24,693 nt of DNA from a virus, in IMG/VR virus record IMGVR_UViG_3300010885_013316, positions 1 to 24,693 of that record. One strand, 5' to 3'. The position numbers and the translations under genes are program-made. Below are positions 16,859 to 24,693 of this stretch, piece by piece; the first letter of the stretch is position 1; the number at the start of each line of letters is the position of its first letter. The notes beneath the pieces are model-generated. The model searched no databases. It worked only from the letters and a program-made list of their open reading frames with translations, and was not told the origin of the DNA.

Positions 16859-19800
16859 ATGACTGTAGGTTCAGATTACGCAAATACAGAGGCTTACAAC
16901 TTATCAACAGATTTGAATGTAACTCCATATTATGATGATTATGAAGATAAGAAAGAGTACTATAGAATTCTCTATAAGCCTGGATTTGCCGTACAAGGCC
17001 GTGAACTTACCCAAATGCAGACAATTCTGCAAAAGCAGATCACACGATTTGGCAGACATATTTTTGAAGAAGGCACTATCGTTATTCCTGGTAATTTTCA
17101 ACTATTTGCTAATAACATATCTTCAACCGGACCTCTCAATTATGTAAAGATCAAAGATGTTGATAATACAGGTAATACAATATCTCTATCCAACTTTGAT
17201 GGTGTTATAATCCGTGGCGCAACATCTAATGTTACAGCACAGATTAGTATTGTTGCCGACGGTTCAGAAATTAGTGCTAATACCAATGCCAAAACACTTT
17301 ATGTTGATTATCTATCAGTTGATTTAGCAAATACAGCACAAAAAATATTTTCTCCTGATGAAATTCTCGTATCAAATGTAGGTAATGTTGTAGTTCTATC
17401 ATCAGCAACAAATCCTTTGGGTAAAGGATCAGCTTTCCGTATTACAGAAGGCGTTCTATTTGCTAAAGAACATTTTATATATTTCCCAGAACAAGAAGTT
17501 ATTCTAGACCGTTATGGTAATAATCCAACAGCTAAAGTTGGATTCAATATTATCGAAAATATTGTCGATTATACACTCGATAGCAGTCTGCTTGATCCTG
17601 CTCTTGAGTCTTCTAACTATTCCGCGCCCGGTGCGGATCGTTTGAAACTATCTGCCGTTCTTGAATCTCGCGCATTTGATGATGCAGGAAGTATTCCAAA
17701 TTTTACAACTCTCTTCACTATCAAAAATGGCGTAATTCAGACATACAATCAAAGAACTCTATATAACATTCTTAAAGATGAACTTGCAAAAAGAACATTC
17801 GATGAGTCCGGAGATTACTATGTTTCAGGTTTAGATGTTGAACTCAGAGAAACTGCTGATTCAGGAACAAATGGTGGTCTAGTTCCTGCTGGAGAAGGTG
17901 TCGATGCTAATACCATAGCAGTTCGTATAAGTCCCGGCACAGCTTATGTTAAAGGATATGAAGTTGGAACTATAGCTGGTGAATATCTCACAACTCCTAA
18001 ATCTTTAAATTATACTAATGTCAGTTCTCAAATCGTATCCGCTTTTATGGGATCTTATATTACAGCAAATAACATGGTAGGTCATTTTGAACTTGACGAA
18101 GGCACAGAAATAACTCTTCTTGATACATATAATAGAAGAATTTCAAATGGCATATTTACAGCAGCAGCTATAGGCAGCATTATTGGTAAAGCCACTGTAA
18201 TGAGTATTGAATATAACAGTGGTGTATTAGGAACATCTGATGGTAGAGCAGATATCTATCTATCAGATATTCGTATGATAGGAAGCAGTAGTTTTTCCTC
18301 TGTAAAGAGTTTGTATATCAACAACACATCAACTGCCGATTTTGGTGCTGATATTGTTCCAGATATTGTAACAAACACTACAGTCTTAAGAGAGCCATTC
18401 AACGGACCTCTACTGTATTACACAGGTTCAAACTTTACCAGAAAAGTAAGAGACGGAAGTAACGGCGATGTTTCAAAAACAACTTATTATTATACCACAA
18501 CAATACCAGTAACAATTACCGAAGCTGGTAGTTATGGCACATTTACCGCATCTGTTGCTGGTGCCAATGTTCCTTATACAGGAACACTATCCACAACAGA
18601 CAAGAGAGAAATCTTCTTAAGTCTTGAATCTTCTGTAAATGTTGCTATGCCAGGAACTTTCCAAAGTGTTGCTTCTGGTAATGTTATTACCGGAGATATT
18701 AACTCAAGATTTAGACGCTTAACAGCTGGAGAAAAGATTCAGTTCACAGGTGTAGGTCACTCTAATACATATACTGTTTTGGCTACACCTACAAGTGACA
18801 TTTCATTGCAAGTTGTAGAACCTTCACTATATCTTACACCTGCTGGTAGTAGTGTAATGTATAGACATTATGGCGCTGGTAGTTATATTGACTTAACATC
18901 TTACGGCATGGCAACTGGAACTTCTCGTACTGTTGGAGTTATCGGAGGTACTCAAACATTACAGTTTAATTTGCAAGAAACTTTCCCAGCATCTACATCA
19001 GCAGCGGTATCTTTCAGAATATCAAGAACGAATGCTGTACAAACAGGCAAAACATTAAGACCAAGCAGATATGTTAAGATTAATTGTGCAACTGCTGCTT
19101 CGGGTACAACTGGGCCATATAATCTTGGATTTTCCGATGTTTATAGAATAAAGAGTATCGTAAAGAAAACTTCAAGTTTCCCAACATCAAATACTGATGG
19201 AACAGTAGTCACATCTCAATTCCTCTTTAACAATGGTCAAAAAGATACTCTATATGATTTGGCCACTATTAAACCAACAACAAGTCTTGCTACAACAGAC
19301 AGACTTCTTGTTGAATTGGATTATTTTATACCCGACTTCTCAGTAGGTAAAGGATTCTTTACTGTTGATTCTTATCCAGTAAACGATCTTGTATCATCAA
19401 GTTCAACAATAAGCACCGCCGAAATTCCTATCTACAAATCTCCATCGTCTGGTAGGAAATATGACTTAAGAAATTATATTGATTTTAGACCTGTAAAGTC
19501 ACTTACAGCCAACGACATAACAGATCCTGCAAGTGCTAGTGTAACAGTAAGTCCAGTAAAATCAAACACATTTAACTTTACATTAAGCTCTCTTGCTTTG
19601 GTTTCACCATCTTCCGAAATTGATTTTGATTACTCATATTATGTGGCAAGAAAAGACATTGTTTCTGTAAGTAAAAATAAAGTGTTTACCGTTACACAAG
19701 GAGAACCAGGACCTTTACCTGTTACGCCACAAATACCAGAAAACGAATTAGGTTTAGCTGTATTAACTATTGCTCCATTTCCATCTATCTCTCCATACTA

Positions 19801-22800
19801 TGCTAAGATTATAGGTAGACAAGATATCGCATGTGCAAGTAGAAAAATTGCTCCTGTTCGACAGACTATGCGCGATCTTGGCGTTATGAAGAGCAGAATT
19901 GCAAGTCTTGAATATTATGCATCACTTAGCTTGTTAGAGAAGAGTGCTGCTGATATGCTAATTCAAGATGAAGCTGGTCTTGATAGATTTAAAAATGGTA
20001 TCTTTGTTGATACTTTCCGTAATCACACATTAGGCGATACAACAAATGGAGATTATCGTATTGTTGTAGATCCTGCTGAAAATAGCATTCGCCCTCTATA
20101 TTCTATGCAGTCTATTAATTATGATTACCTAGCAGGAGCAAATGTAAGAAGAATAAACGATATAGTCACTCTTGATTACTATGAAGTTGAATATGCAAAT
20201 GTGTCTTCTGTTACTGCTACAATAAACACAGAAAAATCATCATATGCCTTTATTGGAAATATGACACTTATTCCAGATAGCGATATATGGATTGATACAA
20301 TTACTTTACCACCACAAACAGTATCTTTTGAAAATGCAAATCTTGATGGTTTGGCAGATGCCCAGCAAGTTGGTGGTGTAACAACTACATGGAACGCTTG
20401 GCAAACTCATATTACTGGATATAAAGTTTATCAAGAAACAGCAGGTAGTAAAGTATTAATTGGTACATATTCCACATATAATGAAGCTTACAATCAAGCT
20501 CAAAATATTAGAACAACATCGTTTGGCGCAACAATTGAAACATCTTATCAAAATGATAGAACTGGTTCCGAATCCTATACATTTGTAGATCAAGATACTG
20601 TTTCTACAGGTTCTAAACTTGTTAGTACCGAAATTATACCTTATATCAGACCTCAGGTATTGATAGGATCTGTCAGTGGTATTAAACCATATGCAAAATA
20701 TAAGATATTCTTTGACAACATTGATATGACAAGTTATGTCAGACCTATAACTTATGATGAATATCTTAACTTTAACACTTTAACTCCAACATTCTCTATT
20801 GGCGATGATCTTCTAGCTAATCCAGAAGGCCAATTGTGGTTTAGATTGAGTTTACCAAACTCAAACAATTTGAGATTTACTGTAGGTTCAAAAGTAGTTA
20901 AAATTACAGATAGTATGACAAATACATCTGAAGAAACATCTTATGCCACAAAGACATTCTTTGCTCAAGGCATGATTGAAACTAAGCAGGAAACAATTCT
21001 TTCAACAAGACAAGTTGATATAAGAAGCACTCCTTTGACTGAAAGCTATGGTTACAACACATTTGACACTTTACCTCCATTGCTTGCGGCGCCGCCACCA
21101 CCTGCGCCGCCGCCACCAGTGCCACCACCTCCACCTCCGCCGCCAGTTTTGCCTCCTGTGCCACCGCCGCCTCTTCCGCCTCTTGTGCCGAATCCTCCGC
21201 CGCCGCCGCCGCCGCCACCGCCAGTGCCGCCGGTGCCGCCGGTAGTAATACCACCGCGTAAACCGCCAATTGTGCTTAGAATCCCACCAAATTTTGGCAT
21301 GAATCCAAATATTTGCTGCTTTGTGCCTTATGCTATGGTAACTATGGCTGACGGTACTAAGAAAGCAATTTGTGACATTAAGAATGGCGATGAAGTTCTT
21401 AGCAGAACTGGTAGCGCAATAGTAACCGATATTATCATTACCGATCTTGGTAATAGAGAACTATATGGTTTTGCCGGTCATGAACCATTTGCTACGGAAG
21501 ACCATCCGTTCTTAACAAACAAGGGTTGGTCATCTTACAAGATTGGCGATTATCACAACCATCTTGTTCGTGATAATGTTCCAAACATCAATTGGGATCC
21601 AATGACTAACAATGAAGAAGTTCTTCATACAAGTGGATTTGTTCCAGTTAATGAGATTGTTACAAAAAAAGAAGATCCTAATAAGAAAGTGTATGCTCTA
21701 ACTCTTGATGATACTTCAGATCACACATATTGGGTTGAAGACTTCTTAACTCATAATAAAGGAGGCGGTGCCCCTGCCGGCAGATGCCTTGCGTATGTAA
21801 TGCCTATTAAAGTTCCTGGAACTGAAGAAGGTATATTCTTGACAGCCGTTGAAGTATATTGTGCTGAAAAACATCCGACACTTGGAATGTGGTGTGAAGT
21901 TAGAGAACTTGACGCTGGCGGAGGTATTACCAGAAATGCTGTTCCATTCTCTGCTGTATGGTTTAGAAATGGTGAAATTCCAATTTCAACTGATGGAAAA
22001 ACAAATGGACTAAAGGTCACTTTTGAAGCGCCGATATTCTTGTATGCTAATAAATCATATGCGTTTATTATTCATCCAGAAGCAGGGAATCCAAATTATT
22101 ACTTCTGGATGTCAAGAATCGGTCAGACTGATATTAATACAGGGCAACCAGTGAATAGTCGTGGTTACACTGGTACAACCTTCACAACAAACAACGATAC
22201 GATTTGGGTTCTACAAGACCAAATTGATATTACATGTAAGTGGTATCGAGCCGCGTTCTATACAGGAACAGGAACATTTGAAATTGGAAATAAACCAAAA
22301 GAAAAGTTCTACATTAAAGATATTGTTGGCAGTTTAGAAGGATTTGGTGAACCATTCGTGACAGGAGATAGACTCACTCTAACTGGAATTCAAGCTAATA
22401 CAGGCGATTTTATTATTGGTCAATCATCTGGAGTTAATGCTACAGCCATCAGTGTTTCTGGTGGCACATATAAAACATCAAATATTAGATTTACATCTAA
22501 TGAATCCGTGACAATTAGATATGGAGCAAATGGTGTTACTAAAGGATCAACTGCTTGTTCAGGAATAAGCGTTGTAGCAACTGTAGCTCGAGGCACTGGA
22601 TCCCTTGAATACTATAAAGAATCTCCAACAAAGACTCAAATGATTTTAACAAATTCAAATGGTTTGTTCTCAAATGGTGAAATTATCTTTGATATTTCAG
22701 ATGAAGGTTATGGAACTATCGAATCTATAGAAAATCAAAGATATTCTGTTATAGATTTTGAACCTACAGTTATTAATTTTGCTAGTACTAGAACTGTATA

Positions 22801-23512
22801 TGAAATGGCAGTAAGTGCAAATTCGAGCGGAAGCGGTATCAATACATATTTCAATTTTGATGCTGGTGAGAACTATACTTTTGATGAAGAAAAGGCAATT
22901 TTCTCTCGCTCTAATGAAATTAACAATCTAAGTTCAGCGCGTTCTAATAGAGTTAGAATTACAATGTCTACGGATACAAACTATCTGTCTCCAATACTTG
23001 ATCTTTCGAGAACACACTCTGTTATCGTTGATAACTTGATAAATTCAGATGTTACTGGTGAAAATCAAACACAAGGTGGGCAATTGTTTAACAAGTACAT
23101 CTCAAAGATCATAACTCTAGCAGATTTCCAAGATGCTGAAGATATGAATGTGTTCTTAACTGCTTATCGTCCACCAACAACAGATATGAAAGTTTGGATC
23201 AAACTGTTGAATGGCGAAGATTCAGATCCTATGGCACAAATAAACTGGATTGAAATGGAAAAGATTTATGGTGGTGACAGCACCTATTCCTCATTCGCAA
23301 ACAAGAATGATTTCAAAGAATATAAGTTTGTCTTACCAGCAACATCTTTGGATGCTAATGGAATATTCACATATTTGAATACTGCAAGTGTGCCATTCAA
23401 GTCCTTCAAATCTTTCCAGATCAAAGTAGGTCTTCTTGGTTGTATTGATGATGGAAACAGCGCAGTTGTTCCAAGAGTTGCTGATCTAAGAACAATAGCA
23501 TTACAGGTCTAA
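16859..23512 (+). CDS. Giant baseplate/fibre-connecting protein: DUF4815-type region, poly-Pro, Hint domain
   Basis: A 2217-residue protein. The N-terminus, YYDDYEDKKEYYRILYKPGF then AVQGRELTQMQTILQKQITR and FGRHIFEEGTIVIPG, matches DUF4815-type structural proteins found after gp8 in cyanophage-like T4 relatives, the place of T4 gp9/gp10. Residues about 40-1400 are mostly beta-rich, with a helical block (VRQTMRDLGVMKSRIASLEY). A 65-residue tract with 45 prolines covers 1406-1470. A Hint domain covers 1487-1633. After it, PIKVPGTEEGIFLTAVEVYC then KSYAFIIHPEAGNPNYYFWM and ITCKWYRAAFYTGTGTFEIG is the C-terminal beta domain usual in this family, so the Hint domain lies at an interdomain junction. 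Self-cleavage would give fragments of about 1486 and 584 residues. AGAGGA precedes the ATG. It probably connects wedge to fibres; the exact role is unproven. Confidence 0.8.
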   Translation: MTVGSDYANTEAYNLSTDLNVTPYYDDYEDKKEYYRILYKPGFAVQGRELTQMQTILQKQITRFGRHIFEEGTIVIPGNFQLFANNISSTGPLNYVKIKDVDNTGNTISLSNFDGVIIRGATSNVTAQISIVADGSEISANTNAKTLYVDYLSVDLANTAQKIFSPDEILVSNVGNVVVLSSATNPLGKGSAFRITEGVLFAKEHFIYFPEQEVILDRYGNNPTAKVGFNIIENIVDYTLDSSLLDPALESSNYSAPGADRLKLSAVLESRAFDDAGSIPNFTTLFTIKNGVIQTYNQRTLYNILKDELAKRTFDESGDYYVSGLDVELRETADSGTNGGLVPAGEGVDANTIAVRISPGTAYVKGYEVGTIAGEYLTTPKSLNYTNVSSQIVSAFMGSYITANNMVGHFELDEGTEITLLDTYNRRISNGIFTAAAIGSIIGKATVMSIEYNSGVLGTSDGRADIYLSDIRMIGSSSFSSVKSLYINNTSTADFGADIVPDIVTNTTVLREPFNGPLLYYTGSNFTRKVRDGSNGDVSKTTYYYTTTIPVTITEAGSYGTFTASVAGANVPYTGTLSTTDKREIFLSLESSVNVAMPGTFQSVASGNVITGDINSRFRRLTAGEKIQFTGVGHSNTYTVLATPTSDISLQVVEPSLYLTPAGSSVMYRHYGAGSYIDLTSYGMATGTSRTVGVIGGTQTLQFNLQETFPASTSAAVSFRISRTNAVQTGKTLRPSRYVKINCATAASGTTGPYNLGFSDVYRIKSIVKKTSSFPTSNTDGTVVTSQFLFNNGQKDTLYDLATIKPTTSLATTDRLLVELDYFIPDFSVGKGFFTVDSYPVNDLVSSSSTISTAEIPIYKSPSSGRKYDLRNYIDFRPVKSLTANDITDPASASVTVSPVKSNTFNFTLSSLALVSPSSEIDFDYSYYVARKDIVSVSKNKVFTVTQGEPGPLPVTPQIPENELGLAVLTIAPFPSISPYYAKIIGRQDIACASRKIAPVRQTMRDLGVMKSRIASLEYYASLSLLEKSAADMLIQDEAGLDRFKNGIFVDTFRNHTLGDTTNGDYRIVVDPAENSIRPLYSMQSINYDYLAGANVRRINDIVTLDYYEVEYANVSSVTATINTEKSSYAFIGNMTLIPDSDIWIDTITLPPQTVSFENANLDGLADAQQVGGVTTTWNAWQTHITGYKVYQETAGSKVLIGTYSTYNEAYNQAQNIRTTSFGATIETSYQNDRTGSESYTFVDQDTVSTGSKLVSTEIIPYIRPQVLIGSVSGIKPYAKYKIFFDNIDMTSYVRPITYDEYLNFNTLTPTFSIGDDLLANPEGQLWFRLSLPNSNNLRFTVGSKVVKITDSMTNTSEETSYATKTFFAQGMIETKQETILSTRQVDIRSTPLTESYGYNTFDTLPPLLAAPPPPAPPPPVPPPPPPPPVLPPVPPPPLPPLVPNPPPPPPPPPPVPPVPPVVIPPRKPPIVLRIPPNFGMNPNICCFVPYAMVTMADGTKKAICDIKNGDEVLSRTGSAIVTDIIITDLGNRELYGFAGHEPFATEDHPFLTNKGWSSYKIGDYHNHLVRDNVPNINWDPMTNNEEVLHTSGFVPVNEIVTKKEDPNKKVYALTLDDTSDHTYWVEDFLTHNKGGGAPAGRCLAYVMPIKVPGTEEGIFLTAVEVYCAEKHPTLGMWCEVRELDAGGGITRNAVPFSAVWFRNGEIPISTDGKTNGLKVTFEAPIFLYANKSYAFIIHPEAGNPNYYFWMSRIGQTDINTGQPVNSRGYTGTTFTTNNDTIWVLQDQIDITCKWYRAAFYTGTGTFEIGNKPKEKFYIKDIVGSLEGFGEPFVTGDRLTLTGIQANTGDFIIGQSSGVNATAISVSGGTYKTSNIRFTSNESVTIRYGANGVTKGSTACSGISVVATVARGTGSLEYYKESPTKTQMILTNSNGLFSNGEIIFDISDEGYGTIESIENQRYSVIDFEPTVINFASTRTVYEMAVSANSSGSGINTYFNFDAGENYTFDEEKAIFSRSNEINNLSSARSNRVRITMSTDTNYLSPILDLSRTHSVIVDNLINSDVTGENQTQGGQLFNKYISKIITLADFQDAEDMNVFLTAYRPPTTDMKVWIKLLNGEDSDPMAQINWIEMEKIYGGDSTYSSFANKNDFKEYKFVLPATSLDANGIFTYLNTASVPFKSFKSFQIKVGLLGCIDDGNSAVVPRVADLRTIALQV
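21074..21268 (+). repeat. Polyproline tract (45 Pro in 65 residues)
   Basis: Residues 1406-1470 of the giant protein contain runs of 8 and 10 consecutive prolines. The DNA is pyrimidine-biased and very GC-rich (CCG/CCA/CCT codons) within an AT-rich gene. Such runs stall ribosomes and need elongation factor EF-P. They form a stiff polyproline-II rod, here placed just before the Hint domain. Confidence 0.93.
21317..21757 (+). other. Hint (mini-intein-like) autoprocessing domain
   Basis: Residues 1487-1633 (147 residues) carry the Hint signature in order. Block A is CFVPYAMVTMADGTKKAICD followed by IKNGDEVLS, with nucleophile Cys1487. Block B is T1546-E-D-H1549-P, the TxxH motif. Blocks F/G are VYALTLDDTSDHTYWVEDFL ending in His1632-Asn1633. 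No homing endonuclease domain fits in this length. The next residue is Lys1634, not Cys/Ser/Thr; the nearest Cys downstream is 1643. This fits a bacterial intein-like (BIL) or hedgehog-type Hint that cleaves rather than splices. Confidence 0.85.
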
Positions 23513-23736: not shown

Positions 23737-24693
23737 ATGGCATTAGCAAACGTAGCACTAACAAACACATTTGATGAGTGGCGTACTAGAACGAATCAGC
23801 TGGTCGTTCAAAGTAATGTTTATGAAAGCGATATGTTATTTCTGTATAATAAAGGCAATAATTCTCCTTCTTACGCATATGCTAATAACATTGGTGTAAC
23901 ATCAAATGCTTTTGCTAGTAATACGATAGCTGGGGCAAACACAGCAGTTGGTGCTGGTGCTAATGCTTTTTCTGCTGCTACAATAGCAGGTGCTAATACA
24001 GCAGTTGGTGCTGGTGCTAATAACTTTGCTAAAGCAACTATTGCCGGTGCTAATACAGCAGTTGGTGCTGGTGCTAATGCTTTTGCTTCTGCTACAATAG
24101 CAGGTGCTAATGCTGCTGTTGGTGCTGGTGCTAATGCTTATGCTGCTTCTATTGGTACTGCTTCTAATAACTATCTCCTAGCAGTAATTGCTGGTGCTAA
24201 TACAGCAGTCGGTGCTGGTGCTAACGCTTATGCTCTATCAATAAGTTCAACATCAGGTGTCAGCTTTACATCCACACTAAATGGTGCTAATACAGCAGTC
24301 GGTGCTGGTGCTAATGCTTATGCTTCTGCTACCATAGCAGGTGCTAATACCGCAGTTGGCAATGGTGCTAATAACTTTACTAAAGCGACATTGAATGGCG
24401 CTAATACTGCTGCAAGAGATGCGACAAACTTAACATCAGGTACTGTTGCTCTTGCTCGCGGTGGTACAAATGCACCACTTAGCGGAATTGCAGGAGGTAT
24501 TGTTTATTCTACATCAGGAGCTCTTGCTATAAGCGCGGCTGGTAGCACTAATCAAGTTTTAATATCTAATGCTGGTACTGCACCATCATGGATCGGGCAA
24601 TCAGCTCTACAGGTTGGTTATGCTACTGCGGCAGGATCTGCTGGTTCAGCAACAACGGCTGGTTCAGCAACAACGGCTGACAGTGCCACTACC
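23737..24693 (+). CDS. Tail fibre protein, N-terminal part (runs off the window)
   Basis: ATG at 23737 opens a frame that stays open for 319 codons to the end of the window. The N-terminus (ALANVALTNTFDEWRTRTNQ followed by LVVQSNVYES) is the short attachment segment shared by many T4-like tail fibres. Residues about 63-228 are Ala/Gly/Asn repeats (TIAGANTAVGAGANAF) that suggest a trimeric repetitive shaft. LTSGTVALARGGTNAPLSG is the 'ARGGT' motif common to phage fibre shafts, and the following part is Ala/Ser/Thr-rich. The receptor-binding C-terminus and any chaperone lie beyond the window. The ATG is 4 bases after the preceding stop. Confidence 0.85.
   Translation, partial: MALANVALTNTFDEWRTRTNQLVVQSNVYESDMLFLYNKGNNSPSYAYANNIGVTSNAFASNTIAGANTAVGAGANAFSAATIAGANTAVGAGANNFAKATIAGANTAVGAGANAFASATIAGANAAVGAGANAYAASIGTASNNYLLAVIAGANTAVGAGANAYALSISSTSGVSFTSTLNGANTAVGAGANAYASATIAGANTAVGNGANNFTKATLNGANTAARDATNLTSGTVALARGGTNAPLSGIAGGIVYSTSGALAISAAGSTNQVLISNAGTAPSWIGQSALQVGYATAAGSAGSATTAGSATTADSATT
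23923..24420 (+). repeat. Degenerate 57-bp (19-residue) tandem repeats in the fibre shaft
   Basis: Units begin at 23923, 23980, 24037 and 24094 at an exact 57-bp spacing. Longer variant units follow from about 24184 and 24280, and 57-bp spacing returns at 24331 and 24388. Each encodes a variant of TIAGANTAVGAGANAFASA. Nearly identical blocks (ggtgctaatacagcagt) make the array prone to recombination and length change. Confidence 0.88.
24643..24678 (+). repeat. 18-bp perfect tandem duplication in the tail fibre
   Basis: The unit ggttcagcaacaacggct occurs at 24643-24660 and again at 24661-24678, encoding GSATTA twice. A third diverged copy (DSATT) follows at the window edge, so the array may continue. 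Confidence 0.9.

Follow-up and report, generated by a model that had tools for sequence, protein, structure and literature searches.

A Hint domain followed by a conserved lysine in the linker of a DUF4815 baseplate protein from an uncultured phage

The window analysed here, a virus record of 24,693 bases from an uncultured virus of bacteria, encodes on its plus strand a 2217-aa baseplate protein (16859..23512, +) of the DUF4815 / phrog_358 family (Pfam PF16075, E 1.2e-41; phrog_358, E 0). The protein is VrlC-like, VrlC being the name given to the DUF4815/phrog_358 protein of pelagimyophages, where it is described as integral to two-layered baseplates (PMC7029224). Genes resembling those for gp53, gp6 and gp8 of the baseplate wedge adjoin this ORF, as identified with Pfam and PHROGs. 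The downstream ORF (23737-24691) runs for 319 aa to the end of the window and contains repeated GANTAVGAGAN-like units, so that it is probably a repetitive tail fibre. On the minus strand, a 743-aa protein (626-2857) shows a weak match to Hydrolase_2, a cell-wall hydrolase model (E 2e-5, below cut-off).

The DUF4815 protein hosts a Hint domain of 147 aa (residues 1487-1633; 21317..21757, +), placed between an N-terminal part and a C-terminal part of 584 aa (residues 1634-2217; 21758..23509, +) that is homologous to the region beginning DPxAQ(S/T)F in many other DUF4815 proteins. Ahead of it lies a poly-proline spacer (residues 1405-1477; 21071..21289, +), which is missing in Hint-less relatives and varies in length among the Hint-bearing ones. 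The C-terminal region has homologues in 563 phage records; a domain of its own was looked for in residues 1634-2217 and none was identified, and an AlphaFold2 model of this part, built from 7 sequences, was unusable (pLDDT 43.5). In two other loci the DUF4815 protein is encoded by two adjacent ORFs with the break upstream of the Hint (L006, 3491-6646 + 6681-9923; G001:C1, 28403-31411 + 31440-34658), so that the N-terminal part can exist as a chain of its own and continuity is not essential everywhere.

All the residues expected of an active Hint can be read from the translation. Cys1486 (21314..21316, +) is the -1 residue of a Cys-Cys-Phe start, and Cys1487 (21317..21319, +), the catalytic Cys1, falls in an invariant column of two Hint alignments. 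Block B is the TxxH motif Thr1546-Glu-Asp-His1549 (21494..21505, +), block G is His1632-Asn1633 (21752..21757, +), and the +1 residue is Lys1634 (21758..21760, +). The first-pass annotation had proposed exactly these residues, together with the span of the domain and a 2217-residue host with flanks of about 1486 and 584 residues, and the translation bears it out: Cys1487 begins at nucleotide 21317, Asn1633 ends at 21757, and the flanks comprise residues 1-1486 and 1634-2217. Its reading of the domain as a BIL-type Hint that lacks Cys/Ser/Thr at +1, at an interdomain site rather than in an enzyme active site, is likewise sound, all catalytic residues being present ahead of a Lys and the domain sitting in an interdomain linker.

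The assignment to the Hint fold is supported from several sides. The Pfam models Vint, Hom_end_hint, Hint and PT-HINT match exactly this stretch (PT-HINT from 1493 to 1633), all of them below their curated cut-offs, and the AlphaFold2 model of the domain, for which 57 sequences from the window and from viral contigs were used, reaches a mean pLDDT of 89.9; the coincidence of the matches with a confidently predicted fold argues against a chance call. When the model was compared with solved structures, 45 PDB chains matched at a Foldseek E<=0.001, and all those listed are Hint domains. The best solved fold is Tetrahymena BIL2 (6y75/6tmm; Foldseek E 2.1e-9 for 6y75), which aligns over 142 residues with an rmsd of 2.2 (VIA Z 19.2). 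On VIA Z, C. thermocellum BIL4 (2lwy, Z 16.7) shares second place with gp41-1 (Z 16.6), ahead of other inteins. A sequence profile search of the PDB is also led by BIL2 (E 4e-19) and BIL4 (E 4e-18). As modelled, residues 1487-1633 belong to the Hint superfamily, with its Hedgehog/intein beta fold. Within it, the domain has the marks of a type-A BIL, namely Cys1, TxxH and a C-terminal His-Asn, with a +1 residue that is not Cys, Ser or Thr; it is Lys here and in all 5 close loci. Type-A BILs are also expected in hypervariable regions of non-conserved proteins; here the linker is hypervariable and the host protein is conserved.

The variability of this linker becomes apparent when the family is examined with a scan for the DPxAQTF start, which is blind to what lies upstream. 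It returned at least 119 family ORFs, of which 97 had 150 or more residues upstream and were counted, the 22 shorter ones being left out. Among the 97 listed, a single ORF (L176) has a Hint at the site, the others carrying poly-Pro, Gly-rich, Thr-rich or other linkers; that of Ochrobactrum phage OC is Gly-rich. The closest relatives found to lack the Hint (L519, L520 and L521; 70-74% identity in the C-terminal part) have a short linker within one continuous chain, with neither Hint nor poly-Pro spacer. By these comparisons, the Hint and its spacer form a cassette that is present or absent in a hypervariable linker. This pattern led us to reject a conserved maturation cleavage of the kind known for gp5 of T4, to which the processing had originally been likened, because the site is not kept across the homologues examined. 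The junction itself reads NNK-SCLAY in L519 and L521 and RDR-SNACLAY in L520, to be compared with HN-K-SNACLAY in the Hint-bearing L004. Judging from these alignments, relatives without the Hint already carry a basic residue here, so that the Lys at the window's site may be host sequence.

The domain seems to have been under long-term constraint at the protein level. Between the window and its distant relative L006, the Hint shares 77.6% amino acid identity (147 residues), versus 36.4% (978 residues) and 31.3% (483 residues) for its flanks and 42.9% (434 residues) for gp8. Four-fold degenerate sites differ to a similar extent throughout (26/47 in the Hint, 86/166 and 36/66 in the flanks, 56/82 in gp8), which gives no clear sign that the Hint is younger and suggests that selection maintains its protein sequence. 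A recent horizontal transfer as the source of the high identity was rejected because these sites are about as diverged in the Hint as in the flanks, within the limits that saturation sets to such a test. In the close relatives L002 and L004, Hint and flanks have diverged by similar amounts.

We surveyed the +1 residue in short Hints gathered from viral contigs and genomes by DNA patterns blind to that position, together with relatives of the window, using a profile that ends at the Asn. Of 488 domain rows, 52 exceeded E 1e-3, 46 lacked the N-terminal end and 157 the C-terminal one, 1 lay at an edge and 27 were exact duplicates; after these had been removed, 205 remained (124 viral, 3 from phages and 78 from genomes); all counts are samples among the matches listed, not totals. 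Some scans selected for one catalytic motif, and a full-length profile match was required throughout. Among the full-length viral Hints listed, Cys1 is found in 123/124 and the terminal His-Asn in 120/124; of the 119 that have both, 115 show TxxH or SxxH as block B. The catalytic Cys, His and Asn are kept over deep divergence, as the reading of the first-pass annotation requires. Even among the loci listed that were selected on block B only, Cys1 and His-Asn are present in 47/47. This degree of conservation makes it improbable that the Hint is a catalytically silent structural domain, a spacer or a binding knob, a role to which its repeats and the long poly-Pro spacers would otherwise lend a structural look.

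The same survey modifies the view that the domain simply lacks its +1 nucleophile. In most of the homologues listed Lys or Arg does stand in place of Cys/Ser/Thr, but this is not mere loss, as the Lys is itself conserved: among the 119 viral matches listed with Cys1 and His-Asn, 85 have Lys and 11 have Arg at +1, leaving 23 with neither. When the viral matches listed are grouped at 60% identity, the most frequent +1 residue is Lys in 34/63 clusters and Arg in 10/63. At the other flanking positions examined, Lys occurs in 2 to 15 of 102-119 sequences, and it makes up 5.1% of the 97 Hint host ORFs listed; the enrichment at +1 is also found by two separate scans (34/47 for the block-B pattern and 30/49 for the block-A pattern, among the matches listed). 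Both Lys codons are used (AAA 62, AAG 23 among those listed), which indicates that the residue rather than a DNA word is kept, and a DNA-level constraint on the codon was rejected on this ground. At -1, Ser (34), Gly (23) and Cys (20) prevail among the 119 viral Hints listed. The columns associated with a +1 Lys or Arg are a GWK[SA]xxP stretch and an acid before the block-B His, an association confounded by descent. The preference is not specific to viruses, since 9/31 bacterial and archaeal clusters among the matches listed likewise have Lys as their most frequent +1 residue; of the 65 genome Hints listed with His-Asn, Ser follows in 27 (the commonest, mostly from Streptomyces) and Lys in 13. 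By contrast, all 9 distinct full-size inteins that one of these scans recovered carry Cys (7) or Thr (2) at +1.

As to cultured phages, Hint searches of 50,697 phage records mostly returned the inteins of helicases, terminases and recombination proteins, and no HNK Hint was found among the matches translated and read, which may explain why this type has gone unnoticed. Other Hints of cultured phages are found in Achromobacter JWF/2-1 and in Ruminococcus phages, the latter with Ala or Ser next. A literature search, covering the titles and abstracts listed of largely open papers, found neither a Lys rule for +1 nor phage baseplate proteins reported to have Hint domains. Four loci in Aeromonas chromosomes (L291, L311, L340 and L342) contain short HN-K Hints followed by a Gly/Asp-rich stretch, possibly in prophage or secreted proteins; their hosts being cultivable, these would be useful for experiments.

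The architecture of the host proteins gives further clues to the nature of the module. In 12 of the 85 +1-Lys proteins listed, the protein ends exactly at HNK-stop, and three proteins (L063, L114 and L119) start with Met-Cys directly ahead of Cys1. By the N-degron rule, an N-terminal Lys or Arg marks a chain for turnover. Cleavage after the Asn would expose such a residue on the downstream chain, so that the Hint could create a basic N-degron, and it is precisely these two residues that are enriched at +1; yet the proteins that end in HNK-stop have no downstream chain, and the phage would be destroying its own baseplate domain, which makes this explanation extremely improbable. Two or more full-length Hints occur in 18/102 viral ORFs listed, forming 22 adjacent pairs in which the first spacer residue is Lys in 12 and Arg in 7. 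The clearest array is that of L176, a DUF4815 protein by both phrog_358 and PF16075, where four tandem Hints (1274-1419, 1421-1582, 1584-1745 and 1747-1908) are separated by a single Lys each and HN-K-DPLAQTF stands at the end. In our quick tree, a starred branch unites its Hint 1 with L191 and L241 rather than with its own Hints 2 and 3, so that duplication is not the only source of the array.

Hints of this kind are also found in other hosts, such as a J-like tail-tip protein with an N-terminal Hint (L082, from a PHROGs scan of 15 proteins in all, in which several hosts received no assignment). In L241, two Hints (640-784 and 806-950) precede a weak match to Peptidase_S74, the endosialidase chaperone (952-1022), to which the second is joined by HN-K-SDARLKR, possibly placing two self-processing modules in a row. 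Six further proteins (L083, L109, L118, L143, L144 and L164) have, behind the HNK Hint, a second Hint-like stretch of ~143 aa with a CFLKGT or similar start that reaches the protein end; the copy in L109 is without the terminal HN.

Such a distribution raises the question of whether the module is a passenger, be it selfish or neutral: a mini-intein-like element might persist where linkers tolerate it, by removing itself or by being harmless. The first-pass annotation had argued against a selfish element, a position made harder to defend by a sporadic cassette in a hypervariable linker that recurs, sometimes in tandem, in several tail proteins, is absent from L519-L521 and, on a quick tree with 48/126 inner branches open, needs 7 changes of the DUF4815 label, the number of independent gains being unsure. 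However, the 147-aa domain contains no homing endonuclease and has been better conserved than its host protein over long times, Hints lie in linkers and at protein ends rather than in conserved enzyme sites, and the Lys accompanies the module in unrelated hosts. On balance, we regard a passenger as rather unlikely.

We consider it probable, from the conserved residues, the modelled fold and the analogy with known BILs, that the domain is an autoprocessing, type-A-BIL-like Hint that was inserted with its poly-Pro spacer in a flexible DUF4815 linker, and that it cleaves or splices its host through an amine. In type-A BILs, a thioester forms, the Asn cyclises and the freed amine attacks the thioester, and cleavage products dominate, according to a review (PMC4031507). 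Here, Cys1487 would take over the N-terminal peptide bond as a thioester, the N-S shift being helped by TxxH, and Asn1633 would cyclise and free the C-terminal part. The thioester could then be hydrolysed, leaving two chains, or be attacked by an amine of Lys1634, either the freed alpha-amine or that of the side chain, which would join the two flanks into one chain that lacks the Hint. Since both junction residues and the +1 Lys are kept, we infer a reaction at both junctions, with a +1 amine able to end the thioester. The +1 Lys, sometimes Arg, would be part of the working unit, likely as the source of the amine, or of the positive charge, by which the thioester is resolved. The Arg found in 11 of the 119 Hints listed speaks against a strict side-chain nucleophile and suggests that charge or the alpha-amine matters more. 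Counting against any such role, as far as alignments can tell, are the 23/119 listed Hints with neither Lys nor Arg and the basic residue already found in Hint-less relatives.

Whether the reaction would end mainly in cleavage or mainly in rejoining is about an even bet. If it were cleavage only, both junctions would break and chains of 1486 and 584 residues would be held non-covalently in the baseplate. BILs without a Cys/Ser/Thr at +1 are described as giving mainly cleavage products (PMC4031507; PMC7664689), the flanks of the Hint are flexible linkers, and the protein is naturally split into two ORFs in L006 and G001; but plain cleavage needs no conserved +1 Lys, the Hint is missing from most family members listed, and the nearest Hint-less relatives keep a single chain, which favours rejoining. 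Self-cleavage alone is a possibility to be taken seriously, though less likely than not. The conserved Lys, together with the isopeptide that BIL2 forms with a Lys side chain according to the authors of its structure (PMC8616854), leaves splicing through an amine as open as cleavage. A bolder version, which we find doubtful, is that a widespread group of viral Hints splices with a Lys acceptor: its unit would be Cys...His-Asn-Lys, the +1 amine (the alpha-amine once the Asn has cyclised, or the epsilon-amine if an isopeptide forms) would take the N-terminal chain from the thioester, and single units, HNK ends and Lys-spaced arrays would rejoin or cross-link tail proteins without Cys/Ser/Thr.

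If the Lys does take part in the reaction, nature would offer in these Hints a source of domains whose ligation or cleavage needs no Cys/Ser/Thr acceptor, of help in protein engineering, and the resolution of the BIL thioester would become testable with many variants. For phage biology, autoprocessing would mean an ATP-free step in the tail and baseplate proteins of uncultured phages. Were the Lys a bystander charge only, it would still be a marked regularity without an explanation.

Among known systems, the closest in fold is BIL2 of Tetrahymena BUBL1 (6y75, 6tmm; Z 19.2, 23% identity), which is likewise interposed between independent domains and in which, as its authors describe it, a Lys amine forms the isopeptide (PMC8616854). 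The two differ in that BIL2 belongs to a eukaryotic ubiquitin-like locus, whereas the Hint described here lies in a phage baseplate protein, and in that the acceptor Lys of BIL2 is placed by its authors in the downstream ubl5 domain (PMC8616854), while here the candidate Lys is the +1 residue itself, conserved and yet replaced by Arg in 11/119 of the matches listed. Type-A BILs such as C. thermocellum BIL4 (2lwy; Z 16.7, 28% identity) share Cys1, TxxH, the terminal HN, the lack of a +1 Cys/Ser/Thr and, as regards the linker though not the conserved host protein, the location in variable regions; window-type modules differ from them by a +1 residue that is mostly Lys, a rule not found for BILs in the literature covered, and by their occurrence in Lys-spaced arrays. 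With class 1 inteins such as gp41-1 (6qaz) the domain has in common the fold and the catalytic residues, but it has neither a +1 nucleophile nor an endonuclease; an ordinary class 1 intein was rejected, given Lys1634 at +1 and a variable linker rather than a conserved functional site. The PT-HINT domains of polymorphic toxins are related through the Pfam match below cut-off, but what follows here is the conserved DUF4815 C-terminal region, so that a toxin-releasing Hint was also rejected, the downstream part being baseplate and no C-terminal toxin domain being present. The Streptomyces Hints of our survey, with mainly Ser at +1 among the matches listed, are again unlike that of the window. Finally, the Hint-less VrlC/DUF4815 proteins, such as those of Ochrobactrum phage OC and L519-L521, have the same protein on both sides and a short linker at the site. 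Measured against all of these, and as far as sequence comparison goes, the module would be of a known Hint/BIL kind, the surprising part being its conserved +1 Lys and its Lys-spaced arrays.
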